Shown here in pieces: positions 8,105 through 28,631 of a DNA stretch of 64,000 nt. How positions within the stretch are numbered: position 1 is the first letter of the stretch; each line of letters begins with the position of its first letter. This DNA is from Rhodobiaceae bacterium (lineage in GTDB: Bacteria > Pseudomonadota > Alphaproteobacteria > Parvibaculales > Parvibaculaceae), in NCBI GenBank assembly GCA_021404525.1, contig JAAWWE010000008.1, forward strand, positions 1 through 64,000, given 5' to 3'. Both the position numbers and the translations under genes were made by a program. The notes beneath the pieces were generated by a model that did no database searches, was not told where the DNA came from, and saw only the letters and a program-made list of their open reading frames with translations.

Positions 8105-8485
8105 ATGGAACTCAGCGAAATACTCCGCTTCGCATCAGCACTCATCTTTGTTGTTGGTCTTATTGTTGCCTGCGCCTGGGGCGCGCGGCGCTTTGGTCTG
8201 GTGCCCACAGGCCGCCAAACATCTATGAATAAGCGCCTTGCGGTGACCGAAACCCTCGCAATCGACCCCAAACGCAAACTGGTAATTGTACGCCATGATG
8301 ATCGCGAACATCTCCTGCTTCTAGGAGATCAGGACACCATTCTGGAAGCGGGCCTTCCCGCCAAAGAAGAGCCGGTGCTTGAAGGGACTGCAGACGTCAA
8401 ACCTCTCAACGCCTCTGCGCTAACGGGGCCCGTGACAGATCAAATGCAAAAGGTTGTTTCTCTTCTGAAGGAGCGCCGCGCGTGA
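8105..8485 (+). CDS. fliO: Flagellar biosynthesis protein FliO
   Basis: FliO is a small membrane protein that helps FliP assemble in the export gate. The 126-residue protein has one N-terminal membrane segment (about residues 6-25) followed by a cytoplasmic domain with RLAVTETLAIDPKRKLVIVRHDDREHLLLLG, the FliO core. The start has GGGGA 6-7 bases upstream. It overlaps fliP by 4 bases (GTGA), so the two are translationally coupled. Confidence 0.92.
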   Translation: MELSEILRFASALIFVVGLIVACAWGARRFGLVPTGRQTSMNKRLAVTETLAIDPKRKLVIVRHDDREHLLLLGDQDTILEAGLPAKEEPVLEGTADVKPLNASALTGPVTDQMQKVVSLLKERRA

Positions 8486-9237
8486 TTTTCAGTCCAAGTC
8501 AAAAACACCTGGTGCTCGCTGCGCTGACGGGCGCGGTTGTTCTTCTATTCTCTGCCCTCCCCGCCGCCGCAGAAACCATCAATGTGGATTTCTCGGAAGG
8601 CTTTGGTCTCACCGAACGCATCGTTCAGATCATCGCACTAGTCACAGTACTCAGTCTCGCCCCGTCGATTCTGATCATGATCACTTCCTTCGTGCGCATC
8701 GTAGTGGTTCTGTCACTTCTTAGAACAGCAATGGGCGTTCAACAGTCACCCCCAAATTCGGTGATCATCAGCCTCGCTCTGTTCCTCACAGCATTCATCA
8801 TGGCGCCAGTGTTTGAAACGGCTTACGAAACGGGTATTCAGCCGCTCATCAACGAAGAAATCGAGATGGGTGAAGCGCTGAGCGTTTCCTCAAAACCATT
8901 TCAAGAATTTATGCTGACGCAGGTGCGGGACAAAGACCTTCAGCTCTTTATGGACCTGTCAAAAACACCGGCGGTTGAAAATCAACAGGAAATTCCTTTT
9001 CAGGTTGTCGTCCCAGCCTTCATGATCAGCGAGCTGAAACGCGCATTTGAAATCGGGTTTCTTATCTTCGTGCCATTCATCGTGATCGACATGATTGTCG
9101 CCTCGGTCCTCATGTCCATGGGCATGATGATGCTGCCACCGATCATTATCTCCCTGCCCTTCAAGCTCATCTTTTTCGTGCTTGTCGACGGTTGGCATTT
9201 GATCACCGGATCGCTGGTTCAGAGTTTCGGAACCTAG
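8482..9237 (+). CDS. fliP: Flagellar export gate protein FliP
   Basis: FliP forms the core channel of the flagellar export gate. The protein has a cleavable signal peptide (LAALTGAVVLLFSALPAAAE) and four membrane segments, with family motifs RIVVVLSLLRTAMGVQQSPPNSV, VVPAFMISELKRAFEIGFLIFVPFIVIDM and SMGMMMLPPIIISLPFKLIFFVLVDGW. Length 251 is typical. It starts with GTG overlapping the fliO stop codon. Confidence 0.97.
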   Translation: MIFSPSQKHLVLAALTGAVVLLFSALPAAAETINVDFSEGFGLTERIVQIIALVTVLSLAPSILIMITSFVRIVVVLSLLRTAMGVQQSPPNSVIISLALFLTAFIMAPVFETAYETGIQPLINEEIEMGEALSVSSKPFQEFMLTQVRDKDLQLFMDLSKTPAVENQQEIPFQVVVPAFMISELKRAFEIGFLIFVPFIVIDMIVASVLMSMGMMMLPPIIISLPFKLIFFVLVDGWHLITGSLVQSFGT

Positions 9238-9330: not shown

Positions 9331-12300
9331 TCAGTTGATAGCTGAGTCAGCGCCGTCCAGCGGCTCTGAGAAGCTGCCTTCCATGCTCTGCACGAAGCTG
9401 TCCAGCGTATCGATCGATGCGACGCTGCGAGCAAGGTCTCTAAAGGCCACGCCGTTGGTTTGAATGGGGTCGGTGACCACCGCAAACGCAGCAGCGTCAG
9501 GGCTAGCACTCATCAGATCTCCGAACTTAGCCCGCATACGCTCAAGTCCGACCGCATCATCATCTAGCGAGAAGCTTATGGCAGCCCGCAGCACTTGAAA
9601 CCGTTCATCCTCGGTCAGAGGCAGCGGATCACGCCAGCGCTCGCCAAGCGCGGTTTCAAAGTTGGCGGCTGCAACAGCCCATTGCTGTGACTCCCAGTGA
9701 ATATTTGCAACCAGATCCGCGACGCCCTCTCCGTCGGTCTCCGACAGCAGGTCCAACGCGTGGTCATACAAACCAAGGTCGGTCAATGCCCGGGCTTCGA
9801 GCAATCGGCGTTTATGGGTCAGGTCTTTAGGCAGTCTCACCTGTTTGGTCGAGCGAATAGCACGCAGCGCTGCAGTTGGCTGCCGGTTCATCAACTCAAT
9901 CAGAGCAAGTTTCGCGGCAACCTGTGCCTGAGCAGTACCCCGGAGGCGATTATCCACCTGATGCCGGAGCAGTGTTGCCGCCTTATCGAGCAAATCAACC
10001 TCAACCATCCGATCCGCAAGGTTGCGAATGAGGGCATCCCCCCGTCGACCAATCGGTGTGAGCTCCCGGAACTCATAGTAGATGGAGAGCGCCTCCACCG
10101 GATCCATGTCATCCGCACCCCCGTCCAGATAGAGATCGGTAAACGTCTCCGTCATGGCGGAGGCCACACGTCGTGCACGTTCGGTTTCTGGGAAAGTACC
10201 AACAGCCATCCGCCAGATTTCCAGACCCTCTGCAACCTCGCCCTTCGCAATCAACAATTCACCCAACCGCTCAAGAACCGCAAGTTCAAGATCATCGCCT
10301 CGCCAAACAAGCCGCAAGGCATGGAGCTCTTTGGTGAGTTCTTCGTCACTCATTGCTCCCAATTCATGACGGAGATTGGCATGAGCAAAGCGCGCACGAG
10401 CAAGAATGGCCCTATGATCCGACGTCAGAAGTTGATCATAAATTTCCAGCGCTTCATCAGCGCGGCCGAGCGCTTCATAGAGACGCCCACGCGTGAGGTC
10501 AGACTGTTCCGCCCATCGACCATTGTCGGCGCCAGCAGGAATTCGGTCCAGATTGAATTCGACACTGCCCAGGTCACCAGTCGCAAGCGATGCCTCAGCA
10601 GCTTTCATTCTGAAGAGAGCCTGTAAGTCAGGTCCGTAAATCTCAAAAGCTTTCTCTGCCTGCTCGAACGCCAGGCGCGCGTCACCCCACTGGGCAAGCT
10701 CCGCATACGCAACGCCGCGCCACAAAGACGAGTGTGGATCACCGTCCAAAGCGGGGAAAGCCAGGTCAGCGATTGCTTCTTCCGGGCGCGCCATCATGAT
10801 CTGCGCGACACCGCGTAGCGCCCGAAAGCCCGGATCGTTTTCCATCGTTTCAGAAGCCAACACAGCTCCCTGAAGCATGGTGTAAGCTTCTGTGCCCAAA
10901 CGATAGCTCAGCAGGAACTTAGCGTATTTGATGCGCGCTTCCGCGACATCCGCATCGTCTGCAAGAGCCACTGCGCGCTGATGAAACTGTTTACGCTCGA
11001 TGAAGTTTTTCCCAGGGGAATAGCGCCACCGTTCGAAATCCATACGACCCGGCGCCGATGGGTCACCGACACGGGACGCCGCAGGCGCGCTACCGGAATA
11101 GTCCGGACCATCGGCAGCGGACAAGGTCAGACCTGAACCCCGCGAAACAGTAACGCCACGCGGTGTCTCACTGACATAAAGATCATCCGCCCGCGACACG
11201 AGCGCCAGCCCCTGTGCGGTCGACAGAGCCTCAAATTCAACAAAATTTCGAGGCGCCAACAGCCCCTGCGGCGGGCCCTTAGCCGTGACGATTGCAATCG
11301 TGTCATAGACCACCGGATCGCGAACCCAATGGATGCTCCCGACGCTCTCCACATCAAAAATCACCTGCGGCTCGCCTGTCGCGCTCCACGCACGTGTAAT
11401 TCCGACCGGCCGCGTCGGCTCCACAATCATGTCACCAAGGGTCACGATCCAACGATTGTCACGCTCCCCCGCAGTAAGGAGAACCCGTTCAGGTGGCGCA
11501 AAACGCAGCGCACTCGCCCCATCAAGGTCAACAATCTCTGGATCGCCCAAACGCTCTCGAACAACAGGGCCTAAATCAGACAGGTTAAAGTCTGTTTCCC
11601 GGTCAAAAACCATCCAAACGCGATTGTCCCGCTGGAAGATTGCTGCCTTCGTCGGCTCAGCCCAAGGAAAGGTCAAACGAATGCTGCGTTCTGTTAGGTC
11701 AGAGGTTACAGGCAAAGCTGCTTGGTCAATATCGGCTGGATTGGGATATGCAGAAACAAGTTCATCTGCACGCACAGGTGTCACAGCCTCTTCCGGTTGG
11801 CGCGTCTCCGCCACGGCTTCGGAGGACGGAACTGGCTGACCTACCTCTGTCGTCAGCGCAGCCTCCCCCGCCCCAGTCGTTGCGGGCGCTGCTTGCTCTT
11901 GTGGAGCGGACGCTAGTACGGGAGCTTCTTCACCCGCAGCTTCAGCAGCCGCCGCCTCTTGAGCCGCTGCCGCTCTCTGGCTTTCTGGCTCTTCAATCGG
12001 TTCAGAGGGTGCTGTGGTGGGAACAGGAAGCAAAGGCGCTGGAGCTGCTGCGGCAACAGGCCGCACATCTTCCGGGCGCGCGGGCGCTACATCCAGCACC
12101 ACGCTCAGGTCCTCTCGGAAATCACGAACTTTGACGCCTGGCTCTGTCTCAACGAAGACCGTCAGGCGGCCACCTGACTTTTCAGCCCGCGCAGACGTCA
12201 CCAACGCAGGCGGATCCACACGGAGCGAAGCAAGCGGCAGGTCGGCAACCTGATCGAATGTTATGGTAATCCGATTATCTCGGAAGGCCGTTGAGTAAAG

Positions 12301-12924
12301 AACCGGACGGTCCCACTCAAACGCCAGTCGCGTAAAACTCGGTTGCTCACCAACACGAAGCGCAACGCGTGGCAGGTCCTCAACAATCTCCAGCGCCTGT
12401 GGTCCAAGCTCCGCAAATTGTGCAGCCCGCGCCTGACGTTCTCTTTCTTCCGCCGCCATCCGAGCAACAACGACAGGAGGCAGCGGAGGCGCGTCACCAG
12501 CCCAACCCGGCGCCAGCAGATCAACGTAGAGCTCATGCCCCGCCTCGCGTGCATGGATTTTAAAGTCCGCCTTCATCGCCATGCGAAGCGTGCGGTCATC
12601 TGCGTCCATTCGGACCAGGGCGAGGTAGCGCGGCATCCTGCGCAGCAAATCATCAATATCAATTTCGAGCGGTCGCTCGAAGGTAAGAACCAGGACCCCC
12701 GCCGAAACAAGTGATTCATATCCAGGCAAGCGGGTATCTGGAACGGTCGGGTCTTCTGGCAGCCCTGTGTCAGGCCAGGCAAATACCAGACGGCCAAAGC
12801 CATTTTCTTCTTTGCCCGTCAAACGAACATCATCAGCCGCCATTGCCGGAGAAAGAAGGCCTGCCGTAGAAAGAGCCAGGACCAAAACCGTGCTGAAAAT
12901 GCAGGACCAGAATACGTGACGCAT
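9331..12924 (-). CDS. Giant periplasmic AMIN-like/TPR protein linked to MotB-like genes
   Basis: I do not know a characterised homologue. The 1197-residue protein starts with a signal peptide (cleavage probably after TAGLLSPAMA). Residues about 35-270 and 405-600 are beta-rich and contain three copies of a pattern like xRLxFxW-x(8)-F-xR-xNRxxxxFD (e.g. FTRLAFEWDRPVLYSTAFRDN; IRLTFPWAEPTKAAIFQRDN), reminiscent of AMIN-type envelope-binding domains. An Ala/Glu/Pro-rich linker lies at about 285-400. The second half, from about 690 on, is helical with TPR-like repeats. It is the third gene of a unit with two MotB-like proteins, its ATG overlapping the preceding stop codon by one base. A role in stator or periplasmic flagellar function is inferred from this context only. 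Confidence 0.75.
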   Translation of the reverse strand: MRHVFWSCIFSTVLVLALSTAGLLSPAMAADDVRLTGKEENGFGRLVFAWPDTGLPEDPTVPDTRLPGYESLVSAGVLVLTFERPLEIDIDDLLRRMPRYLALVRMDADDRTLRMAMKADFKIHAREAGHELYVDLLAPGWAGDAPPLPPVVVARMAAEERERQARAAQFAELGPQALEIVEDLPRVALRVGEQPSFTRLAFEWDRPVLYSTAFRDNRITITFDQVADLPLASLRVDPPALVTSARAEKSGGRLTVFVETEPGVKVRDFREDLSVVLDVAPARPEDVRPVAAAAPAPLLPVPTTAPSEPIEEPESQRAAAAQEAAAAEAAGEEAPVLASAPQEQAAPATTGAGEAALTTEVGQPVPSSEAVAETRQPEEAVTPVRADELVSAYPNPADIDQAALPVTSDLTERSIRLTFPWAEPTKAAIFQRDNRVWMVFDRETDFNLSDLGPVVRERLGDPEIVDLDGASALRFAPPERVLLTAGERDNRWIVTLGDMIVEPTRPVGITRAWSATGEPQVIFDVESVGSIHWVRDPVVYDTIAIVTAKGPPQGLLAPRNFVEFEALSTAQGLALVSRADDLYVSETPRGVTVSRGSGLTLSAADGPDYSGSAPAASRVGDPSAPGRMDFERWRYSPGKNFIERKQFHQRAVALADDADVAEARIKYAKFLLSYRLGTEAYTMLQGAVLASETMENDPGFRALRGVAQIMMARPEEAIADLAFPALDGDPHSSLWRGVAYAELAQWGDARLAFEQAEKAFEIYGPDLQALFRMKAAEASLATGDLGSVEFNLDRIPAGADNGRWAEQSDLTRGRLYEALGRADEALEIYDQLLTSDHRAILARARFAHANLRHELGAMSDEELTKELHALRLVWRGDDLELAVLERLGELLIAKGEVAEGLEIWRMAVGTFPETERARRVASAMTETFTDLYLDGGADDMDPVEALSIYYEFRELTPIGRRGDALIRNLADRMVEVDLLDKAATLLRHQVDNRLRGTAQAQVAAKLALIELMNRQPTAALRAIRSTKQVRLPKDLTHKRRLLEARALTDLGLYDHALDLLSETDGEGVADLVANIHWESQQWAVAAANFETALGERWRDPLPLTEDERFQVLRAAISFSLDDDAVGLERMRAKFGDLMSASPDAAAFAVVTDPIQTNGVAFRDLARSVASIDTLDSFVQSMEGSFSEPLDGADSAIN

Positions 12925-13556
12925 CAGGCTCCCCCTCCCCGCGGATCGCTGATGATCAATAACAGCGCATCGCCCGGAAGCCCCGGCGCCACAAACCTTT
13001 CAATAGGACGCGAATAACCTGCTTGCCGCAGTGCAGCTGCAACGCTGTCTGCCCGATCAAAGGCCAATGTCCAATCCTCGGAGGGAACGGAAGACATCAC
13101 GCTAACGGGGTTGGCGACGCCAGACAGAATGCGGGAGAGATCTGCAACCACGCCGCTCGCTAAGGGTCTTAATGCACGACCGTCTGCCGCAAAGGCAAAA
13201 TCTGGCGCAAAGCGGATCATCAGGCGCCCATGCTCAACCCGCTGGCTCAAAGGACCACCCTCACCGAGCGGGGCCAGGCCACGATCAGAAAACACCGCTG
13301 AGAGATAATCGACGGTCAATGTCGGCCGCGACGAAACTTGCACGCTGCGCGCAGCCTCTTGCCTGGCGACCTGATCAACCGCAGAAACGCCCGGTCCACT
13401 TTCTACACTCGCTTCGCCACGGCCACTGAGTGGTGAGGACATGGCATAGATCAGGACAAAGAAAGCGACGAGAATGGCTGTCAGGTCAGCAAAGGTGACC
13501 AGCCAAAGCGATCCCTCGCTTTGAGACTCCACAGCTGTCTGAACAGAGGCGGTCAC
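12924..13556 (-). CDS. MotB-like protein with conserved membrane Asp
   Basis: A 210-residue protein with one N-terminal membrane segment, SLWLVTFADLTAILVAFFVLIYAMS, that matches the MotB plug/TM pattern, including the Asp used for ion flow in MotB. The rest resembles an OmpA-like peptidoglycan-binding domain (FDRADSVAAALRQAGYSRPIERFVAPG near the C-terminus) but is short. It starts with GTG overlapping the stop of the upstream MotB-like gene (GTGA). No motA is in the window. It could be a true stator subunit or a stator-related protein; the domain assignment is good, the function is not proven. Confidence 0.75.
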   Translation of the reverse strand: MTASVQTAVESQSEGSLWLVTFADLTAILVAFFVLIYAMSSPLSGRGEASVESGPGVSAVDQVARQEAARSVQVSSRPTLTVDYLSAVFSDRGLAPLGEGGPLSQRVEHGRLMIRFAPDFAFAADGRALRPLASGVVADLSRILSGVANPVSVMSSVPSEDWTLAFDRADSVAAALRQAGYSRPIERFVAPGLPGDALLLIISDPRGGGA

Positions 13557-14239
13557 GATGCGGCCTCCGGAAGGGTAAAGAACCGGAAACTGACAAACTC
13601 GCGAGGTGCATCGGTCACACCAACAGCCATGTGCCCTTCCGGCGTACCTGCAACGGACAACAGCCGCGCTAAAGAGGCCGCGCGCCGCACATCCAACCTG
13701 TTTTGTGAGGCGGCAGGGACCAGGATCGCAACATGCCGGTCCTTCGAGCCGCCAGACAGTGCTGCACCAAGTGCCGCAAACAAAAGGCGTTTATCAGCAC
13801 GTATCGCCGCTGCCCCGTCGACAAACAGAGAGGAGACATCAAGCGCGAGATCCAATGACCCGCCACGTCGGATGCTCTCCTGCTCGCCAACATCTGCAAA
13901 TGCTGTGACAACGGCATTTGAAAAGTCACCTGATGCCGGTTGCGATCCATGCTGTAAGACAGGCAAGGCGCTGCCACTGAGGCGACCATCATCATCAACC
14001 TTGCCGGCATTCAAAACACCGAAGGCGTCCTGAATACCACCAATGACTGGTCCAACCCGTTGCTCATCGAAGGAAGAACCCGACGTCAGAACAAAGAAAA
14101 ACGTGAGCAGCATCAAAAACAGGGAAAGCTGCAACGTGTGCGTGCCATCAGCATTGGTCGACGCGTCCGCAGCGGCAATCCGCCCCTGCCCATCGATCAG
14201 CGCGACGCTGGCTATATGATCTTGGTCATTCACTGCCAC
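13553..14239 (-). CDS. MotB-like protein lacking the membrane Asp
   Basis: A 228-residue protein, first gene of the three-gene unit. It has a single membrane segment HTLQLSLFLMLLTFFFVLTSGS at about residues 34-53, aligned with the MotB-type segment of its neighbour, but the Asp position is occupied by an uncharged residue. The C-terminal half has an OmpA-like pattern (LDVRRAASLARLLSVAGTPEGHMAVGVTDA). The GTG start is preceded by GGGCAGG. It may form a heteromeric complex with the next protein, in which only one partner carries the ion-binding Asp; this is inference. Confidence 0.65.
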   Translation of the reverse strand: MAVNDQDHIASVALIDGQGRIAAADASTNADGTHTLQLSLFLMLLTFFFVLTSGSSFDEQRVGPVIGGIQDAFGVLNAGKVDDDGRLSGSALPVLQHGSQPASGDFSNAVVTAFADVGEQESIRRGGSLDLALDVSSLFVDGAAAIRADKRLLFAALGAALSGGSKDRHVAILVPAASQNRLDVRRAASLARLLSVAGTPEGHMAVGVTDAPREFVSFRFFTLPEAAS

Positions 14240-14474: not shown

Positions 14475-15191
14475 TCAGGGAATGGCCGGGGCTTCTTCCA
14501 GCAGAGATGTCATGTCCAGTTCGGAAGGAATGGCCCCACCCGTTGCCAGCTCGACAGTCAGTTCCTGCGCGGCAATAGGGTCCATCGCGGCCAGAATAGG
14601 CGCCATTTTGCGTTCGCTCATGCGCCGAACGACCTGGATCAACACATCCATGTCGAGTTGTCCCAGAATCCGCGCGGCATCTTTCGGTTTCATGTTGGAA
14701 TACATGGTCACAAGCGACGCCAGTTGCTGTTCCTGAGCTTCTTCTTGAACCCCGAACAAGGTTTCAATACGCCCTTCTATGTCCTTGAGCTCATCAATAC
14801 GCGCCTGCACCCGTCGTTCGGATGCTTCGAGCAATCTTGCCTGCATCTGAATGTCCCGCTCCCGCATGTCCAGAGCTTTTCGGCGTTGGCTCAAACTGCG
14901 CAGAACATTCTGTTCGGAATTGGAAGGACGATCAAAATCCTCCGGGGCAAGACGCGCCGATGGGTCGACCTCGGCGACTTCCGGCTCGGCGGTCGTCTCC
15001 GCGGAAGCCTCTTCTGGTGCATCTGCCGCTTCAGCAACATCTTCCTCAGCGTAGGCAGGCTGCACACCACTTAAAAGCGCATCAACGCCAACGCCGATGG
15101 ATATCAATTTGAGGCCCAACAATGCCGCAGCACAAACCATCAGAGATGGCAGCAAACGAACCTGTGGGACTTTGGAAACTTGAGATGTCAT
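14475..15191 (-). CDS. MotE-type flagellar protein (MgtE-N-like)
   Basis: A 238-residue protein with a signal anchor (LLPSLMVCAAALLGLKLISIGVGV), an acidic Ala/Glu-rich stretch (about 48-80), a coiled coil (about 95-155) and a C-terminal MgtE-N-like domain with YSNMKPKDAARILGQLD and ILAAMDPIAAQELTVELA. This organisation is that of alphaproteobacterial MotE, a periplasmic chaperone for the stator-stabilising protein MotC. It is the last gene of the fliL-fliM-DUF6468-motE operon, 6 bases after its neighbour. Confidence 0.75.
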   Translation of the reverse strand: MTSQVSKVPQVRLLPSLMVCAAALLGLKLISIGVGVDALLSGVQPAYAEEDVAEAADAPEEASAETTAEPEVAEVDPSARLAPEDFDRPSNSEQNVLRSLSQRRKALDMRERDIQMQARLLEASERRVQARIDELKDIEGRIETLFGVQEEAQEQQLASLVTMYSNMKPKDAARILGQLDMDVLIQVVRRMSERKMAPILAAMDPIAAQELTVELATGGAIPSELDMTSLLEEAPAIP

Positions 15192-15197
15192 AAGGGG

Positions 15198-15683
15198 CTA
15201 CCGAGCACGTTTCAGCGCATCCAGAAGAGTTTGATTGAGACCATCTTCCAGCCGTCCGGCATCTGCCGGCGTCATGCCTGACTCCGCTGACGGCATGGGT
15301 ACATATTTTTCCCGATCACGGGGTTTAAGCGCGGCGGGCGTTTGCGCAGACGCAGAGGCGCGCGGACGTCCTGTGCCCAACTGACCGGCAACCTTGTTCC
15401 CCGACGCCACCATGACGGAGAGTTCATCCGCCAAAGTGCGTGCATCGCGCATTTGCTGTGTTAGGCCATCATCAAGCTGACCACTCACCTGCTTCATCTG
15501 TGAGATGCTGATCTCCGCGCGGGCTGTCGCGGTATTGAGCTGATCAATGGTTTGCTTCAGCCCATCCTGGCCAGATCGGAGCGCTTTCAGCTTCCGGTCA
15601 AGCATGGCGCAATAGAAGATCGTTGCGCCGAGCAAAATGGCAACCAGTCCATCGAGCAAAAGGTCTGTTGGAATGTTCATCAT
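15198..15683 (-). CDS. DUF6468-type flagellar-cluster membrane protein
   Basis: A 161-residue protein with one N-terminal membrane segment (about 10-27: LDGLVAILLGATIFYCAML) followed by DRKLKALRSGQDGLKQTIDQLNTATARAE, a predicted coiled coil typical of the alphaproteobacterial DUF6468 family found beside fliM. No biochemical role is known to me. Its start overlaps the fliM stop (ATGA) and the gene downstream is motE, which suggests a function at the motor. Confidence 0.72.
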   Translation of the reverse strand: MMNIPTDLLLDGLVAILLGATIFYCAMLDRKLKALRSGQDGLKQTIDQLNTATARAEISISQMKQVSGQLDDGLTQQMRDARTLADELSVMVASGNKVAGQLGTGRPRASASAQTPAALKPRDREKYVPMPSAESGMTPADAGRLEDGLNQTLLDALKRAR

Positions 15684-16867
15684 GACGGTGCCTCATCAGC
15701 GTCAGGCTCAGCAAAAACTGAATTCAAAACCTCCGGCACGCCCTGGGTAAGCCGAACGGCCACATTGCCGCCAGTCCGCCCCATTTTGCCCTTCATCAGG
15801 GGAATGTCACCGCACCGCATATCGACAGTGGAGTCAGGCGATGCATTGAGCATCAGTGTCTGTCCAACTTCAAAGCCCATAACGTCGCCCAAAGTCATCT
15901 GCTGCTCGTCAAGCACAGCATCGATCTGGACTTTTGTCGACCAAAGCTCCGTCGCCAAGTGACCTTCCCAAATGGAGTCGCGGCCGAACTTTTCACCCAT
16001 AAACATCTGCAACAGAAGTTCGCGAATGGGTTCCAGCGTCGCATAAGGCAAGAGCATCTCAATGCGCCCACCCCGATCTTCCATGTCAATACGAAGTTTG
16101 ATCAGGATCGCAGCATTGGCAGGTCGTGCGATGGCCGCAAAGCGCGGATTGGTTTCCATACGATCAAGTTCGAAGGTTACAGGTGAAAGCGGCTCAAACG
16201 CTGCCTTTGCATCGTCCAGCACAACTTCGATCATCCGCTCGACCAGATTGAGCTCAATCGTCGTATAGGGACGGCCTTCGATACGCATGGCAGCTGTGCC
16301 ACGACGACCGCCAAGCAGAACGTCAACGATCGAATAAATCAGATTGGAGTCAACCGTGAAGAGGCCGTAATTGTCCCATTCCTTCGCACGAAACACCGAG
16401 AGGATTGCAGGAAGGGGAATAGAGTTCAGATAGTCGCCGAAACGAATGGACGAAATATTGTCCAGACTGACTTCCACATTGTCTGAGGTAAAGTTACGCA
16501 GGCTCGTTGTCATCAACCGCACAAGGCGGTCAAAGACGATCTCGAGCATGGGCAGGCGTTCGTAGGAAACCAAGGCAGAATTGATGATTGCGCGGATACC
16601 TGTCCGCTCCCCATCATCATTCTCATCGACCTCAAAGCCAAGGAGGCTGTCAATTTCATCCTGGTTCAGAACACGTTCGGAAGCGCCGTCTGCTTCAAGC
16701 TCAGACGCGCCATCGTCATCGTCTGCCATCGCGGCCCACTCTTCGGCCATGGCGTCGTCATCAACGCCACCCTCACCAGAGTCCGCGGCAGCGTCATCAT
16801 CGCCACCAGCTTCCGCCTCCCAGGCAGCAGCCATCTCGTCCTGATCTAGATCTTCGTCATCCGCCAT
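15680..16867 (-). CDS. fliM: Flagellar motor switch protein FliM
   Basis: FliM is the C-ring protein that binds CheY-P and sets rotation direction. The core is clear: VLNQDEIDSLLGF (CheY-binding and start region), YERLPMLEIVFDRLVRLMTTSLRNF, VDVLLGGRRG, and the SpoA-like C-terminal domain ending GVPEVLNSVFAE. Unusually, a very acidic Ala-rich extension of about 65 residues precedes the CheY-binding motif and contains two related strings, DEMAAAWEAEA and DAMAEEWAAMA. I chose the ATG at 16867, which has GGAG 6 bases upstream; a TTG lies four codons earlier. It follows fliL by 30 bases. Confidence 0.94.
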   Translation of the reverse strand: MADDEDLDQDEMAAAWEAEAGGDDDAAADSGEGGVDDDAMAEEWAAMADDDDGASELEADGASERVLNQDEIDSLLGFEVDENDDGERTGIRAIINSALVSYERLPMLEIVFDRLVRLMTTSLRNFTSDNVEVSLDNISSIRFGDYLNSIPLPAILSVFRAKEWDNYGLFTVDSNLIYSIVDVLLGGRRGTAAMRIEGRPYTTIELNLVERMIEVVLDDAKAAFEPLSPVTFELDRMETNPRFAAIARPANAAILIKLRIDMEDRGGRIEMLLPYATLEPIRELLLQMFMGEKFGRDSIWEGHLATELWSTKVQIDAVLDEQQMTLGDVMGFEVGQTLMLNASPDSTVDMRCGDIPLMKGKMGRTGGNVAVRLTQGVPEVLNSVFAEPDADEAPS

Positions 16868-16897
16868 GGCGGTCTCCAATATCCGAAGCGCGGTGCT

Positions 16898-17410
16898 TCA
16901 CTGCACAACCACTTCTTTAAACAAGACATCGCGTACTTCGTGCGGCTCAACAGCCAGATTAAGGCGGCGAAGCAATTCTTCTTTCATACGAACAATTGCG
17001 GCAGAACCGTCCAGGTCTTCAGGACGCAGTTCGCGCAAATAAACCTGAAATCCGTCAACAACGCGGGGCATCAGAAGCTCAATTTCGCTAAGAATTTCCG
17101 CATTCGGAACTTCGAGCGACACCCGCATTTTGAGATACCGGGTTGGGCCACTATCCGTGCTGATGTTCACAAGAAACTCTGGCATGTCATAGAACACAGG
17201 TGGCTCAGTCACCTCTTCTATAACCGCCATCTGGTCCTCATCGCCGCCACCCAAAATACCAAAGGCAAACAGGGCACCAACGATGCCACCGACAACCACA
17301 AGTGCTGGAAGTGCGATGTAAAGAACGATGACCTTACCGCTCATCTTCTTCTTTCCGCCTTCTTCCTCGACCCCTTCTTCGAAGTCGATATCGGCATCCG
17401 TATCGCTCAT
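16898..17410 (-). CDS. fliL: Flagellar basal body-associated protein FliL
   Basis: FliL is a single-pass membrane protein that supports stator function. The 170-residue protein has an acidic cytoplasmic start, a membrane segment at about 26-48 (VIVLYIALPALVVVGGIVGALFAFGI), and the periplasmic FliL domain with FYDMPEFLVNIST, RYLKMRVSLEV and a C-terminus VRDVLFKEVVVQ. It is the first gene of the fliL-fliM-DUF6468-motE operon. Confidence 0.94.
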   Translation of the reverse strand: MSDTDADIDFEEGVEEEGGKKKMSGKVIVLYIALPALVVVGGIVGALFAFGILGGGDEDQMAVIEEVTEPPVFYDMPEFLVNISTDSGPTRYLKMRVSLEVPNAEILSEIELLMPRVVDGFQVYLRELRPEDLDGSAAIVRMKEELLRRLNLAVEPHEVRDVLFKEVVVQ

Positions 17411-24670: not shown

Positions 24671-24743
24671 CCCTAATTTGAGACTTCTAGGACAAGAAAA
24701 CCGGTCTCAGACGAGATGTTTAACCAGCAAGGATCGCAGGCCC

Positions 24744-26789
24744 ATGAGCTCCACGCCTCAACCTGTTCAAGCGCAAGGTCTCGATATAGACCGAACCATG
24801 AAACAGGCGGTCCGACTTCATCAGAAAGGTCGGCATGAGCAGGCGGAAAAGCGATACACCAAAGTTCTGACCGCTAACCCATCTCATGTGGGCGCCCTAC
24901 ACCTCATGGGCGTCTTGGCCCACCAGGCGGGGCACAATGACAAAGCCGTGGACTTGATCCGCAGAGCGCTGGATGTCGATCCAAATTTTTCTGACGCTTA
25001 CTTCAATTTGGCGCTCATTCATGAGGCAGAAAACCGAATTGGCGAAGCAGAAGCCTGCTACCGTCAAGCGTTGGAGACAGATTCAGAAAATCTCAAAGCA
25101 CACCTGAATCTCGGAAACCTCCTCTTTCAGCGAGACGACTTTGACGCTGCGCTTAAATGTTATGACGCGGTTTTAGCTCTCGCACCGGCAGATCCTCTTG
25201 CGCATAAAAACCGGTCCCGTGCACTCAGAGCTATGAACAGTAGTGAAGAGTCGCTGCAAGCAGTCGCCCGGGCGGTCGAGCTCCGACCAGATGATGCATT
25301 ATTTCAGTTGGAATATGGCAATGCGCTGCGGGATGACGGACACCCGGACAAAGCGGTAGAGCATTTCTTGATCGCAGAACGTCTGGAACCAGACAATATT
25401 AGCATTCTCTGCAACCTCGGCGGCATCCTGAAAGACCTGAACCGCCAGGACGAAGCGGAAGAGAAACTAAACCGGGCGATCGAAATCGATCCAAACTGTG
25501 CGGAAGCTTATGTAAACCTCGCCAACCTCGCTTTAGATCGGGAAGACCATCAAGAATCAGTCGATCTTATAGATCAGGCTCTGTCCATACGTCCCCAATA
25601 TGCTGAAGCATATTGCACGCTTGGCCGCGTTCTGAGCGCACAAGCAATGAATGAAGATGCTTTTGCGGCGTTTCAAAAAGCCATCGAAATTTCGCCCAAA
25701 TTCGCAGAGGCCTACGTCAATCTTGGATCTGTCCTGCAAACCATCGGCAGGCCAGAAGAAGCGCTGCGCGCATATGAAATTGCACTGAACATTAAGCCAA
25801 AAATGGACATGGCCTATTGGAACCTGGCACTCGCTCTCCTCTCAGCAGGACGATTGGACGAGGGCTGGAGCCTCTTTGGGTATGGCTTTACGTCCAAACA
25901 AAGACAACCGCATCGGCCCTTCCCCGGCCTTATCTGGGAAGGTGAAGATGTCAGCGATAAAACCCTATTCGTCTGGCGCGAACAGGGATTGGGCGACGAC
26001 ATTCGCTTTTCCACGATCTATCACGACCTTGTAGACAAGGCTCAAAAACTCATCATTGAAACGGATGAGAGGCTGGTCCCCCTCTACCAACGCACCTGGC
26101 CAACGGCACTCGTCCGTCCAGAAACACGCACAAGCACGGGGCTGGGGACAATGAGTGACGAAGAAGTTGATTTTGACCTGACGGCGCCTGCTGGGATGGC
26201 CGCGTCTTTTCTTCGGCGTTCGCTTGAAGACTTCCCAACGGAACCCAAGCCGCTCCTGCCGGACCCAAAAATGCAGCGCCGGTGCAATGAATGGCTTGAG
26301 AGCCTTGGCGCAGGACCAAAGGTAGGGATCGCCTGGCGATCAAGCCTGATGACAAAAACACGGGCGCTCTATCACACCAAAATCACAGATTGGATCGAAC
26401 TTCTCCGGTCAAAGGGCATCAATTTTGTGAACCTGCAATATGATGATGTTACCGACGAGCTCAAGGAGCTTCAAAGGGATCACAACCTAACGATCCACCA
26501 GATGCCTAATCTTGATCTCTATAATGACCTAGATGGCGCAGCGGCCCTCACATCGTGCATGGATGTGGTCGTAACCTCGCCCACCTCAGTCGGCGAAATG
26601 GCTGGAGCGCTTCACAAACCGACATTCTGCTACGTCATGAGCAGGCACCCCATGCAGTTGGGGACCGATCACATACCCTGGTTCCCCAAAACGCGCCTCT
26701 ATTCAATGATCGATACAGCTGACCACCAGGAAACTGTCGAGAAGATCACGGAAGATGTACGAGCCTTTCTCAGCATTTCGAAGGACTGA
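24744..26789 (+). CDS. TPR-glycosyltransferase protein 1 (candidate flagellin glycosyltransferase)
   Basis: A 681-residue protein with about ten TPR repeats in residues 10-365 (e.g. AYFNLALIHEAENRIGEAEACYRQALETD) and a C-terminal GT-B-like domain with WREQGLGDDIRFSTIYHDL, PKVGIAWRSSLMTKTRALYHT, DLYNDLDGAAALTSCMDVVVTSPTSV and RHPMQLGTDHIPWFP. This is the layout of OGT-like and of Caulobacter FlmG flagellin-modifying enzymes. It has no signal peptide, so it is cytoplasmic. The start with an AAGGA about 10 bases upstream is chosen over an upstream TTG. It is followed by a paralogue 3 bases later and then by the flagellin genes. The flagellin substrate is inference. Confidence 0.75.
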   Translation: MSSTPQPVQAQGLDIDRTMKQAVRLHQKGRHEQAEKRYTKVLTANPSHVGALHLMGVLAHQAGHNDKAVDLIRRALDVDPNFSDAYFNLALIHEAENRIGEAEACYRQALETDSENLKAHLNLGNLLFQRDDFDAALKCYDAVLALAPADPLAHKNRSRALRAMNSSEESLQAVARAVELRPDDALFQLEYGNALRDDGHPDKAVEHFLIAERLEPDNISILCNLGGILKDLNRQDEAEEKLNRAIEIDPNCAEAYVNLANLALDREDHQESVDLIDQALSIRPQYAEAYCTLGRVLSAQAMNEDAFAAFQKAIEISPKFAEAYVNLGSVLQTIGRPEEALRAYEIALNIKPKMDMAYWNLALALLSAGRLDEGWSLFGYGFTSKQRQPHRPFPGLIWEGEDVSDKTLFVWREQGLGDDIRFSTIYHDLVDKAQKLIIETDERLVPLYQRTWPTALVRPETRTSTGLGTMSDEEVDFDLTAPAGMAASFLRRSLEDFPTEPKPLLPDPKMQRRCNEWLESLGAGPKVGIAWRSSLMTKTRALYHTKITDWIELLRSKGINFVNLQYDDVTDELKELQRDHNLTIHQMPNLDLYNDLDGAAALTSCMDVVVTSPTSVGEMAGALHKPTFCYVMSRHPMQLGTDHIPWFPKTRLYSMIDTADHQETVEKITEDVRAFLSISKD

Positions 26790-26792
26790 CCG

Positions 26793-28631
26793 ATGCCAGC
26801 CAAAATTGCCGGTACGACAACCAATGCGGCCGCGCCGAAAAAAACTGCGAATGACCTGATCCAAAAGGGGATGCTCGCTCACCGACAAGGCAAATTCGCG
26901 GACGCGAGTAAAGCCTATGAGAAAGCGCTCAAAAAGGCGCCAAAAGAACTGGCCGCTCTCAACCTTCTGGCTGACGCACAGCTGAATCTGGGCAAAAATG
27001 CCCGGGCTGTTGAGACCGCACACAAGGCCATTGCCCTCAAAGCGGACATGCCGAGCACCTGGATGGTCAAAGGATCGGCGCAGCGGCGGTTGGGCAAGTA
27101 CGATGAGGCGATCCGCTCGCTTGAAACAGCGCTGGAGCTGAAGCCCGACTATGCTGACGCCCTAATGACCCTTGCCGGCACCTTGCGTGACGCTGGACAG
27201 CTGGACGCGGCGATTGAGGCTTATGAGGACCTCGTCGAAATGGCGCCGGACATGGCGATGGCCTACTACAACCTGGGCAACGCCCTTCATGCCGACGGGC
27301 AAGGTGACGAAGCTATCTTCGCCTTTGAAAGCGCGATCGATCACGATCCATCTTACGCGCCCTCCTTTATCAATCTGGCTGGCGTCCTGAATTCAGGAGA
27401 CCGGGCGGAAGAAGCGCTCGCGATATCTGAAAAAGCATTAGAGATTCTCCCTTCTTCTCGCAGCGCGATGATCAACAGGGGGAACTCCCTTAAGACTCTG
27501 GTTCGTTTCGATGAAGCGGAAGCCCAATACCGCGAGCTCATAGCACTCGATAAGTCGGACGCGACAGCTCATGACCTTTTGGGAACCGTCCTTCAGGGTC
27601 AGGCGCGTATCGACGAGGCAATTGCGGAATATAGGGCCGCCATAGCCATAGATGGCAATGAAAGGCTGTACCAAGGTGATCTCTCTATCGCCCTTCTTGC
27701 GAATGGATCTCTCAGCGAAGGTTGGAAGCTCTATGACGCGCGGTTCGGCGGCGGTGAGGCACTGGTTCGCCAGCGAAAGATCGGCAAAAAGACGTGGCAA
27801 GGTGAGTCTCTCGCTGGCAAAACGCTCTATATCTGGCGCGAACAGGGCGTGGGTGATGATGTTCGCTTTGCTTCCTGCTTCAACGACATCATAAGTCGGG
27901 CCACAGAGGAAGGCGGCAAGGTGCTGATCGAAACAGATCCGCGTCTAATGACTCTGTATGAGAGATCTTTTCCATTCGCAGAAATCCGCGCAGAAGGCGA
28001 CGTCCAAGTTGATGGCGATATAGATTTCGACATCGCAGCTGGGTCCCTTCCGGGCTTGGTCCGCGCCGCCCTCGATCACTTCCCTTCAAAGGCAGGCTAT
28101 TTACGGCCCAAACCGGAGCAAATTGCCCGACTACGGGCAGAAATTGACGCTGTTGGTCAGGGTCTCAAAGTCGGCATCGCCTGGAGAAGTCGCAACATGA
28201 CGGCTAACCGTCGGCGTTTCTACACCGAACTGGAAGATTGGAAAGCCTTGTTTGGCAACGCTGATATCCAACTCATAAACCTTCAGTACGATACTGTTGA
28301 TGAAGAAATTAGCGACGTAAATGCGCGTTTCGATGCCCAGATTCATCAGGTGGAAGGTCTAGACCTGATGAACGACCTCGACAGCGCGGCAGCTCTGACC
28401 GCAGCCATGGACGTCGTGATCTCCGCCCCTGTTTCCGTCGCAGACATTGCAGGTGCTGTAGGCAGCCGGTGTTTTGCCTATGGACCACATCGTCATCCGA
28501 TGTGCCTCGGAACAGACCATTTGCCCTGGTACCCAGAGACGACGTGGATTGGCAAACGCTGGAACGCCCCTCTTCAACAATCAGTGGATAAGATTGTTGA
28601 CGACATAAAGGCGCTCGCAAGCACCAGGTAG
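26793..28631 (+). CDS. TPR-glycosyltransferase protein 2 (candidate flagellin glycosyltransferase)
   Basis: A 612-residue paralogue of the preceding protein, with about seven TPR repeats at residues 20-270 and the same C-terminal domain: WREQGVGDDVRFASCFNDI, KVGIAWRSRNMTANRRRFYTELEDW, DLMNDLDSAAALTAAMDVVISAPVSVADIAGAVGS and RHPMCLGTDHLPWYPET. It begins 3 bases after the stop of protein 1 and is therefore in the same operon. Differences in repeat number suggest different partners or acceptor sites. No terminator is seen before the flagellin promoter region. Confidence 0.75.
   Translation: MPAKIAGTTTNAAAPKKTANDLIQKGMLAHRQGKFADASKAYEKALKKAPKELAALNLLADAQLNLGKNARAVETAHKAIALKADMPSTWMVKGSAQRRLGKYDEAIRSLETALELKPDYADALMTLAGTLRDAGQLDAAIEAYEDLVEMAPDMAMAYYNLGNALHADGQGDEAIFAFESAIDHDPSYAPSFINLAGVLNSGDRAEEALAISEKALEILPSSRSAMINRGNSLKTLVRFDEAEAQYRELIALDKSDATAHDLLGTVLQGQARIDEAIAEYRAAIAIDGNERLYQGDLSIALLANGSLSEGWKLYDARFGGGEALVRQRKIGKKTWQGESLAGKTLYIWREQGVGDDVRFASCFNDIISRATEEGGKVLIETDPRLMTLYERSFPFAEIRAEGDVQVDGDIDFDIAAGSLPGLVRAALDHFPSKAGYLRPKPEQIARLRAEIDAVGQGLKVGIAWRSRNMTANRRRFYTELEDWKALFGNADIQLINLQYDTVDEEISDVNARFDAQIHQVEGLDLMNDLDSAAALTAAMDVVISAPVSVADIAGAVGSRCFAYGPHRHPMCLGTDHLPWYPETTWIGKRWNAPLQQSVDKIVDDIKALASTR

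Follow-up and report, generated by a model that had tools for sequence, protein, structure and literature searches.

Which motor is served by two unequal MotB-like proteins that are encoded side by side with no motA next to them? The question is raised by a locus in a Rhodobiaceae bacterium (GenBank assembly GCA_021404525.1), in a window of 64,000 nucleotides that comprises positions 1 to 64,000 of the forward strand of contig JAAWWE010000008.1. Here, three genes encode two MotB-like proteins, named B1 and B2 below, and a giant protein of 1197 amino acids. We propose that the pair probably joins a PomA-like MotA, encoded in a different flagellar cluster of the same genome, in a second flagellar stator of composition MotA5:B1:B2, which would have one channel aspartate (Asp) per unit and sit on a MotE/MotK-type scaffold. 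A preliminary description of the window had read the three genes as sharing overlapping start and stop codons, and the open reading frames on the minus strand of the window agree, with overlaps of 4 bases between B1 and B2 and 1 base between B2 and the giant. The three genes are:

13553-14239, minus strand: B1, MotB-like protein without the channel Asp, 228 amino acids, GTG start; transmembrane helix, plug-like segment and degenerate OmpA-like C-terminal domain.
12924-13556, minus strand: B2, MotB/PomB-like protein with the channel Asp, 210 amino acids, GTG start; OmpA-like C-terminal domain.
9331-12924, minus strand: giant, MotK/PflA-like periplasmic protein, 1197 amino acids, ATG start; signal peptide, AMIN-like beta domains (in a low-confidence model), Pro/Ala-rich linker and TPR superhelix.

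Both smaller proteins had been described as MotB-like and single-pass. Each has one strongly hydrophobic stretch. Profile searches match both to MotB, although the B1 match becomes convincing only when its wider family is included. B2 scores over the cut-off of the Pfam MotB_plug model (PF13677; E = 1.2e-9), and its nearest match in the PDB is PomB (E = 4.9e-13). The B1 match is confined to the plug half of the profile (positions 28-58) and falls below the cut-off (E = 0.019). When 50 alphaproteobacterial genomes, picked for strong B2 matches, were searched with PF13677, their B1 proteins matched positions of about 25-58, many over the cut-off, and their B2 proteins positions of about 9-57. 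The Pfam search gave no OmpA match for the window's own B1 or B2; a wider B2 homologue (L163) does match Pfam OmpA. In profile-profile comparisons, B1 aligns with B2 over almost the whole length (E = 4e-20), and the OmpA parts of B2 and B1 align with canonical MotB at E = 1.6e-20 and E = 0.0013, respectively.

The difference between the two proteins is best seen in an alignment of 95 rows, comprising 37 B2, 36 B1, 10 canonical MotB (every third of 30) and 12 other MotB/PomB sequences encoded beside their own motA. The channel Asp, originally reported as present in B2 and lost from B1 of this window, follows the same division across the alignment, being found in 37/37 B2, 10/10 canonical MotB and 12/12 other MotB/PomB rows and in 2/36 B1 rows, where the position is otherwise Ser (20), Gly (11) or Ala (3). 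The Trp preceding it is likewise present in 37/37 B2 rows and in all canonical MotB and other MotB/PomB rows, and in 2/36 B1 rows. The last Phe of the FF motif is retained by B1 throughout (36/36). Two further positions, the Asp of GHTD and the Arg of LSxxRA, are presumably those with which MotB and PomB bind peptidoglycan; the Arg is kept in 37/37 B2 and 35/36 B1 rows, and the Asp is present in 24/37 B2 and 2/36 B1 rows and absent from both proteins in the window's family. In a tree built with the channel columns left out, B1 forms one clade (support 100/99) and B2 another (100/97), with at least three changes of the Asp state. The bootstrap of this tree, and of the tree with a second lineage described below, is not fully settled. 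The clade structure and the distribution of Asp together show that the B1/B2 split is old and that the loss of Asp took place either at the root of the B1 branch or inside it, and since the contrast is conserved over the B1 and B2 rows, it is not due to chance. Judged by these sequence features, B1 is a MotB paralogue and not an ion-carrying MotB. At two loci, L157 (genome G160) and L164 (G078), Asp occupies the channel position of B1 and Trp stands before it, both either retained or regained; in G160, neither FlhA nor the unlinked MotA described next gives a strong match.

The preliminary description also stated that there is no motA. This is correct for the surroundings of the pair but not for the genome, and a genome without MotA was rejected as an explanation. 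A canonical motA-motB pair is located on contig C33, and a PomA-like motA without an adjoining motB (the orphan MotA) is located on contig C58, in a second flagellar cluster with the order fliF-fliG-fliH-fliN-motA-sigma54 activator-flhA. The nearest PDB match of the orphan MotA is PomA (E = 1.4e-58), and PomA is also its best NCBIfam model (4.6e-61, below the cut-off of the model); the MotA on C33 scores over the cut-off of NCBIfam MotA1. An alignment of 41 orphan MotA rows (39 genomes) with 9 canonical MotA rows shows R88, P154, P202, Thr161 and Thr188 to be invariant in 41/41 orphan rows, and the canonical rows have Ala161 and Gly188. We take R88 and E96 of the orphan MotA to be the equivalents of the torque residues R90 and E98 of Escherichia coli MotA, and Thr161 and Thr188 to be the Thr positions typical of PomA. 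These Thr residues hint at, without proving, an ion or pH preference different from that of the canonical MotAB of the same genome. No MotB was found in the flanks of the orphan MotA at 40/40 loci (39 genomes, with flanks mostly of 1.5 kb a side). A sigma54 activator gene adjoins it at 40/40 loci and fliN at 38/40, the sequences of the other two ending early.

The orphan MotA and the pair occur together. Among 40 genomes of the window's family, with the orphan MotA counted at a minimum of 58% identity, the giant is present in 37, FlhA in 38, canonical motB in 38, the orphan MotA in 11 and the pair in 10. The orphan MotA is distributed by genus (g1, 7/7; g3, 2/2; g5, 2/2; g4, 0/27; g2, 0/2), and the pair is found in 10 of the 11 genomes that have it; the eleventh, G009, is 70% complete and is also without the giant. 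FlhA is matched (E = 4e-217) in one g2 genome, G002, which is 100% complete, but MotB_plug, the orphan MotA and the giant are not, and its export system is either divergent or incomplete. A survey of 385 alphaproteobacterial genomes detected FlhA in 220 and a strong orphan MotA (E <= 2.3e-61) in 100, all of which have FlhA. B2, counted as a match over roughly 100 or more of the 215 profile positions among matches listed to E of about 4e-5, is present in at least 93 genomes. Both are present in 86 of the 385 sampled genomes, which makes the set common in Alphaproteobacteria. Among the genomes with FlhA, 86 have both, 14 the orphan MotA only, 1 B2 only and 119 neither (Fisher 7e-45, shared ancestry ignored). 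The class loci read number 26 and come from the top scorers among 143 matching genomes, the family left aside. In every one (26/26) B1 lies immediately upstream of B2, and a long frame lies directly downstream of B2 in 23/26, most with an AMIN-like start. The gene upstream of B1, where read, is motE or a CheY/CheZ-like gene. Matches in Acidobacteriota were rejected as instances of the same module because all of them (16/16) consist of adjoining motA and motB genes and have Asp, an arrangement shared by the Roseibium locus L011. Co-occurrence across alphaproteobacterial genomes, which the preliminary description had proposed to seek for the three genes, is seen for B2 and the orphan MotA, and points to the orphan MotA as the putative partner of the pair. 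The reading of the locus as a stator-related complex with one Asp-less partner and a periplasmic scaffold remains the best one, and since a dedicated motA elsewhere in the genome tracks the pair closely, the complex is probably a complete second stator.

In some genomes no other stator was found. Three members of one genus (G243, G332 and G409) contain FlhA, the orphan MotA, B1 and B2, and the PF13677 search returned no other MotB_plug match in them. Their completeness is 99% (30 contigs), 91% and 88%, respectively. A search for MotA_ExbB, made in 7 of the 50 pair-bearing class genomes, found a single further match in G243, located between ybgC-like and tolB-like genes and by this position presumably tolQ; besides the orphan MotA, G332 has one similar match and G409 none. 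The flagellar clusters around both sets look intact in G243 and G332 at the loci read. The absence of canonical motB from draft genomes is not proof, but the three agree. A fourth genome of the genus, G135, also has canonical motAB. G349, G070 and G162, which likewise have no clear canonical motB match, were not counted, being fragmentary, without FlhA (G070, G162) or with extra MotA-like matches (G349, G162).

Outside the class, the three components are linked. A wide B1 profile matched 195 of 398 genomes of the phylum, many probably through ordinary MotB. The family f188 accounts for 52 genomes in the match list, 48 of them with at least two matches (counted by eye). At all seven f188 loci read, with genes identified by Pfam at L236 and by BLAST at the other six, the gene order is motA, then a MotB whose channel residue is Gln (2) or Glu (5), then an Asp-bearing MotB, followed by fliL and fliM. 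In a tree that includes f188, its B1 groups with alphaproteobacterial B1 (98/86) and its B2 does not group with alphaproteobacterial B2. Since the branches of both B1 groups are long and the B2 partners do not group, the two B1 groups may have either a common or a separate origin. Whichever origin applies, MotA and an unequal B pair stand together in a single gene run in f188. A different arrangement is seen at L240 (3148-5541; G436, also outside the class), where the two MotB genes behind motA each encode the Asp, a symmetric duplicate unlike the unequal pair.

The giant had been described as having AMIN-like and TPR-like parts, as tied to the pair, and as part of an arrangement without a known characterised counterpart. 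The TPR superhelix is upheld, and the AMIN-like part is a Pfam match in the homologue from G243 (L204; E = 9e-7, over the cut-off); the Pfam search of the window's own protein gave weak TPRs only and no AMIN match. Its N-terminus has a signal-peptide-like stretch ending PAMA/ADD (cleavage read by eye). A model derived from four sequences is confident over residues of about 640-930, which form helical repeats, and places beta domains with low confidence near 33-137, 195-280 and 404-600, the first two separated from the third by a Pro/Ala-rich linker (281-403). The top PDB fold match is chain K of 9hmf, a Campylobacter periplasmic scaffold (E = 2.3e-10, 847 columns); the other listed fold matches are mostly TPR proteins from unrelated systems, and a PDB sequence search with the giant returned nothing useful. 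According to the portion of PMC10954123 available, MotK of Cereibacter sphaeroides, an AMIN and TPR protein, is needed together with MotE for rotation, and both bind MotB2. In the available parts of a review and a preprint (PMC13023049, PMC11870540), MotK, MotC and CC_2058 are treated as relatives of PflA that link the E-ring to stators. By gene position, parts and fold match the giant fits this group, so that a new kind of scaffold was rejected; the giant is a member of the known MotK/PflA kind, and it occurs without the pair too. Its presence in 37/40 family genomes, compared with 10/40 for the pair, severs the proposed tie between them. At the family loci read, motE is followed by the giant in 23/23 (20 genomes), with the pair between them where present, and the 13 g4 loci read have motE then motK with no pair between. 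The preliminary description had allowed that homologues of the giant might be widespread in non-flagellate genomes, which is not so within the family, where 36 of the 37 giant carriers have FlhA.

From these observations a mechanism can be outlined. Five MotA subunits would surround one B1 and one B2 helix, giving a ratio of 5:1:1 in place of 5:2. With one Asp in the B1:B2 unit, only B2 would carry ions, about half as many per MotA revolution, and a step would span about 72 degrees instead of 36. B1 would act as the passive half of the axle, retaining its plug-like segment. The B subunits of the window's family are without the peptidoglycan-binding Asp, and anchoring has thus probably been taken over by the giant, whose AMIN-like domains may attach to the wall and whose TPR superhelix may contact the MotE ring and the B subunits. 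This role is modelled on the positioning of stators by PflA and MotK elsewhere.

Several results weigh against this proposal. The presumed torque residue E96 of the orphan MotA varies across the 41 rows (Glu, 21; Gln, 19; Asp, 1), the loci with a variable E96 being among L064, L088-L098, L177-L203, L205 and L207. Fourteen of the 100 genomes with a strong orphan MotA have no broad B2 match; in 10 of the 14 there is a short match that may come from another MotB. Conversely, 7 genomes have B2 without the orphan MotA, and 6 of them are also without an FlhA match (G070, G097, G107, G160, G162 and G379). The co-occurrence test is uncorrected for phylogeny, and its thresholds were chosen after the lists had been seen. 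The Asp contrast is not absolute, given the two B1 with Asp (L157, L164) and the Glu in second-lineage B1 at 5/7 loci. The structure model of B1 is poor (predicted local distance difference test score of 43) and was not used, and the giant, with a model confident only over about 640-930, superposes badly on 9hmf_K (root-mean-square deviation of 42); use of that model was confined to the TPR part and the fold comparison. Finally, sequence does not distinguish a B1:B2 heterodimer from homodimers.

The last point opens the way to the strongest alternative, which we consider possible though doubtful. Here, a B2 homodimer would occupy MotA in the usual 5:2 ratio with two Asp, and B1, an accessory protein with a single membrane pass, would lie outside the pore and dock or gate the stator on MotE/MotK through its plug-like and OmpA-like parts. 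Loss from B1 of the Trp before Asp, retained by every B2, canonical MotB and other MotB/PomB row and by 2/36 B1 rows, speaks for this reading, and accessory single-pass proteins are known from other stators, FliL being one. However, B1 keeps the helix pattern of MotB, including the last Phe of FF in 36/36 rows, and is homologous to B2 over nearly the full length, which is more than an outside adaptor needs, and motA-B1-B2 form one run in another lineage.

It is improbable that B1 and B2 form separate homodimers on the same MotA, the B2 units driving rotation and the B1 units serving as an ion-dead brake or placeholder. The Asp or Glu of some B1 relatives indicates that B1 homodimers could once have worked, but the genes adjoin or overlap at the loci read, which favours a fixed stoichiometry, and loss of Asp is near-universal in B1. 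On a quite improbable reading the pair is not a motor at all and instead forms a structural ring in the membrane to recruit canonical MotAB, as an aid of the FliL or MotX/Y type. Canonical motB is indeed present in every pair-bearing genome of the family, as in 38/40 family genomes overall, and the majority of the 50 class genomes with the pair have it as well; the pair nevertheless tracks a specific MotA that keeps its pore residues, and in the three genomes of one genus described above it occurs with the orphan MotA and no canonical motB match. Decay of a functionless duplicate, suggested by the degenerate peptidoglycan motif in the window's family, is very improbable for a conserved pair whose Asp pattern and gene order stay fixed across many families.

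In the window, the pair lies in a run of flagellar genes. The remaining genes of the run and its neighbour are:

14475-15191, minus strand: MotE-like E-ring/collar protein, 238 amino acids; MgtE_N and collar FlbB matches, both below cut-off, position as in the available portion of PMC10954123.
15198-15683, minus strand: DUF6468 protein, from Pfam.
15680-16879, minus strand: FliM, rotor switch protein, upstream in the run, from family search.
16898-17410, minus strand: FliL, first gene of the run, from family search.
8105-9237, plus strand: fliO-fliP, convergent neighbour that bounds the run, from family search.

The MotE-like protein matches MgtE_N at E = 2.7e-5 (25.1 bits, cut-off 25.9) and the collar FlbB model at E = 9e-8 (32 bits, cut-off 110). 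Judging from the spacing, the genes from fliL to the giant probably constitute one operon. The same run in other alphaproteobacteria includes a CheY- or CheZ-like gene, which either separates motE from B1 or immediately precedes B1 (L204, 1908-2294; L152, 2-817; L163, 2839-3495). Flagellins, flbT, flaF and flgK are found farther along the window, where two adjoining TPR-rich proteins (703 and 612 amino acids; 24678-28631) directly precede three flagellin genes. The window's assembly (G000) has a further flagellar set on contig C30 (L065, 14.5 kb), comprising FlhA, fliF, fliL, motE, motA and a MotK-like protein of 781 amino acids. The MotA of this set was rejected as the partner of the pair, having 26% identity (E = 3e-7) to the orphan-MotA query and a MotK-like neighbour of its own. 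The second FlhA of the assembly lies in this set (G000:C30:2370-4352); five of the six other genomes of the genus have a single FlhA and G007 has two partial matches, so that the C30 set looks peculiar to the window's assembly and is either a horizontal gain or assembly contamination (reported as 5.39%).

The rotary model of 5:2 motors, which covers flagellar stators, ExbBD, TolQR and GldLM, assumes equivalent B chains and steps of 36 degrees, one per ion, in the available portion of PMC9389320. Nature itself tests this equivalence wherever a conserved stator has one B chain without Asp. If the proposal is true, measurable differences are to be expected in step size, torque and the number of ions per turn, and the alternation of two Asp assumed for 5:2 rotary motors is dispensable, with nature running a one-site version. 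Unequal B chains would also give a fixed orientation to an otherwise symmetric axle, which bears on docking to the periplasmic scaffold. The chances are about even that the full claim holds, namely that a natural MotA5:B1:B2 stator with a single Asp exists across Alphaproteobacteria and, whether of common or separate origin, in another lineage of the phylum, is the sole stator of some species and takes about one ion per 72 degrees.

The opinion that no characterised system has this shape must be given up for the giant, which has its counterparts in MotK and PflA, and can be kept for the pair. The literature searched, in part with MotC/MotE or ExbD as the target and with most subscription journals outside its coverage, yielded no account of an Asp-less MotB partner in flagellar stators. 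As far as could be seen, then, the 5:2 rotary stator is a known kind and the unequal B pair is apparently an undescribed variant of it. With PomAB and MotAB (MotA5:MotB2) the pair shares the channel Asp, the plug-type segment, the OmpA-type domain and the flagellar gene surroundings; unlike them, it has distinct B subunits, one without Asp, its motA is in another cluster, and in the window's family its B subunits are without the peptidoglycan-binding Asp. The giant shares a signal peptide, TPR parts and putative AMIN-like parts with MotK of the C. sphaeroides Fla2 system, CC_2058 of Caulobacter and PflA of Campylobacter, as well as the MotK-type gene place after motE in the fliL-fliM run. It is larger than its MotK kin (1197 amino acids), and its lineage has the MotB-like pair between motE and motK; the partner of C. 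sphaeroides MotK is MotB2, unlike the pair beside the giant. The same pairing of Asp and non-Asp chains is seen for a related type of motor in the window's own genome, where two runs (L061, 3765-4573, on contig C33; L063, 4243-5045, on C16) each combine a PLID and a PLIN ExbD-like protein, thus one with Asp and one with Asn, beside an ExbB-like protein. These runs, named by position and motif, differ in being TonB-type energising systems. The nearest described case with two MotB homologues, according to the available portion of PMC9389320, is the AglRQS gliding motor of Myxococcus, which likewise combines them with one MotA homologue, but it is not flagellar, and its AglQ and AglS are both described there as having Asp.

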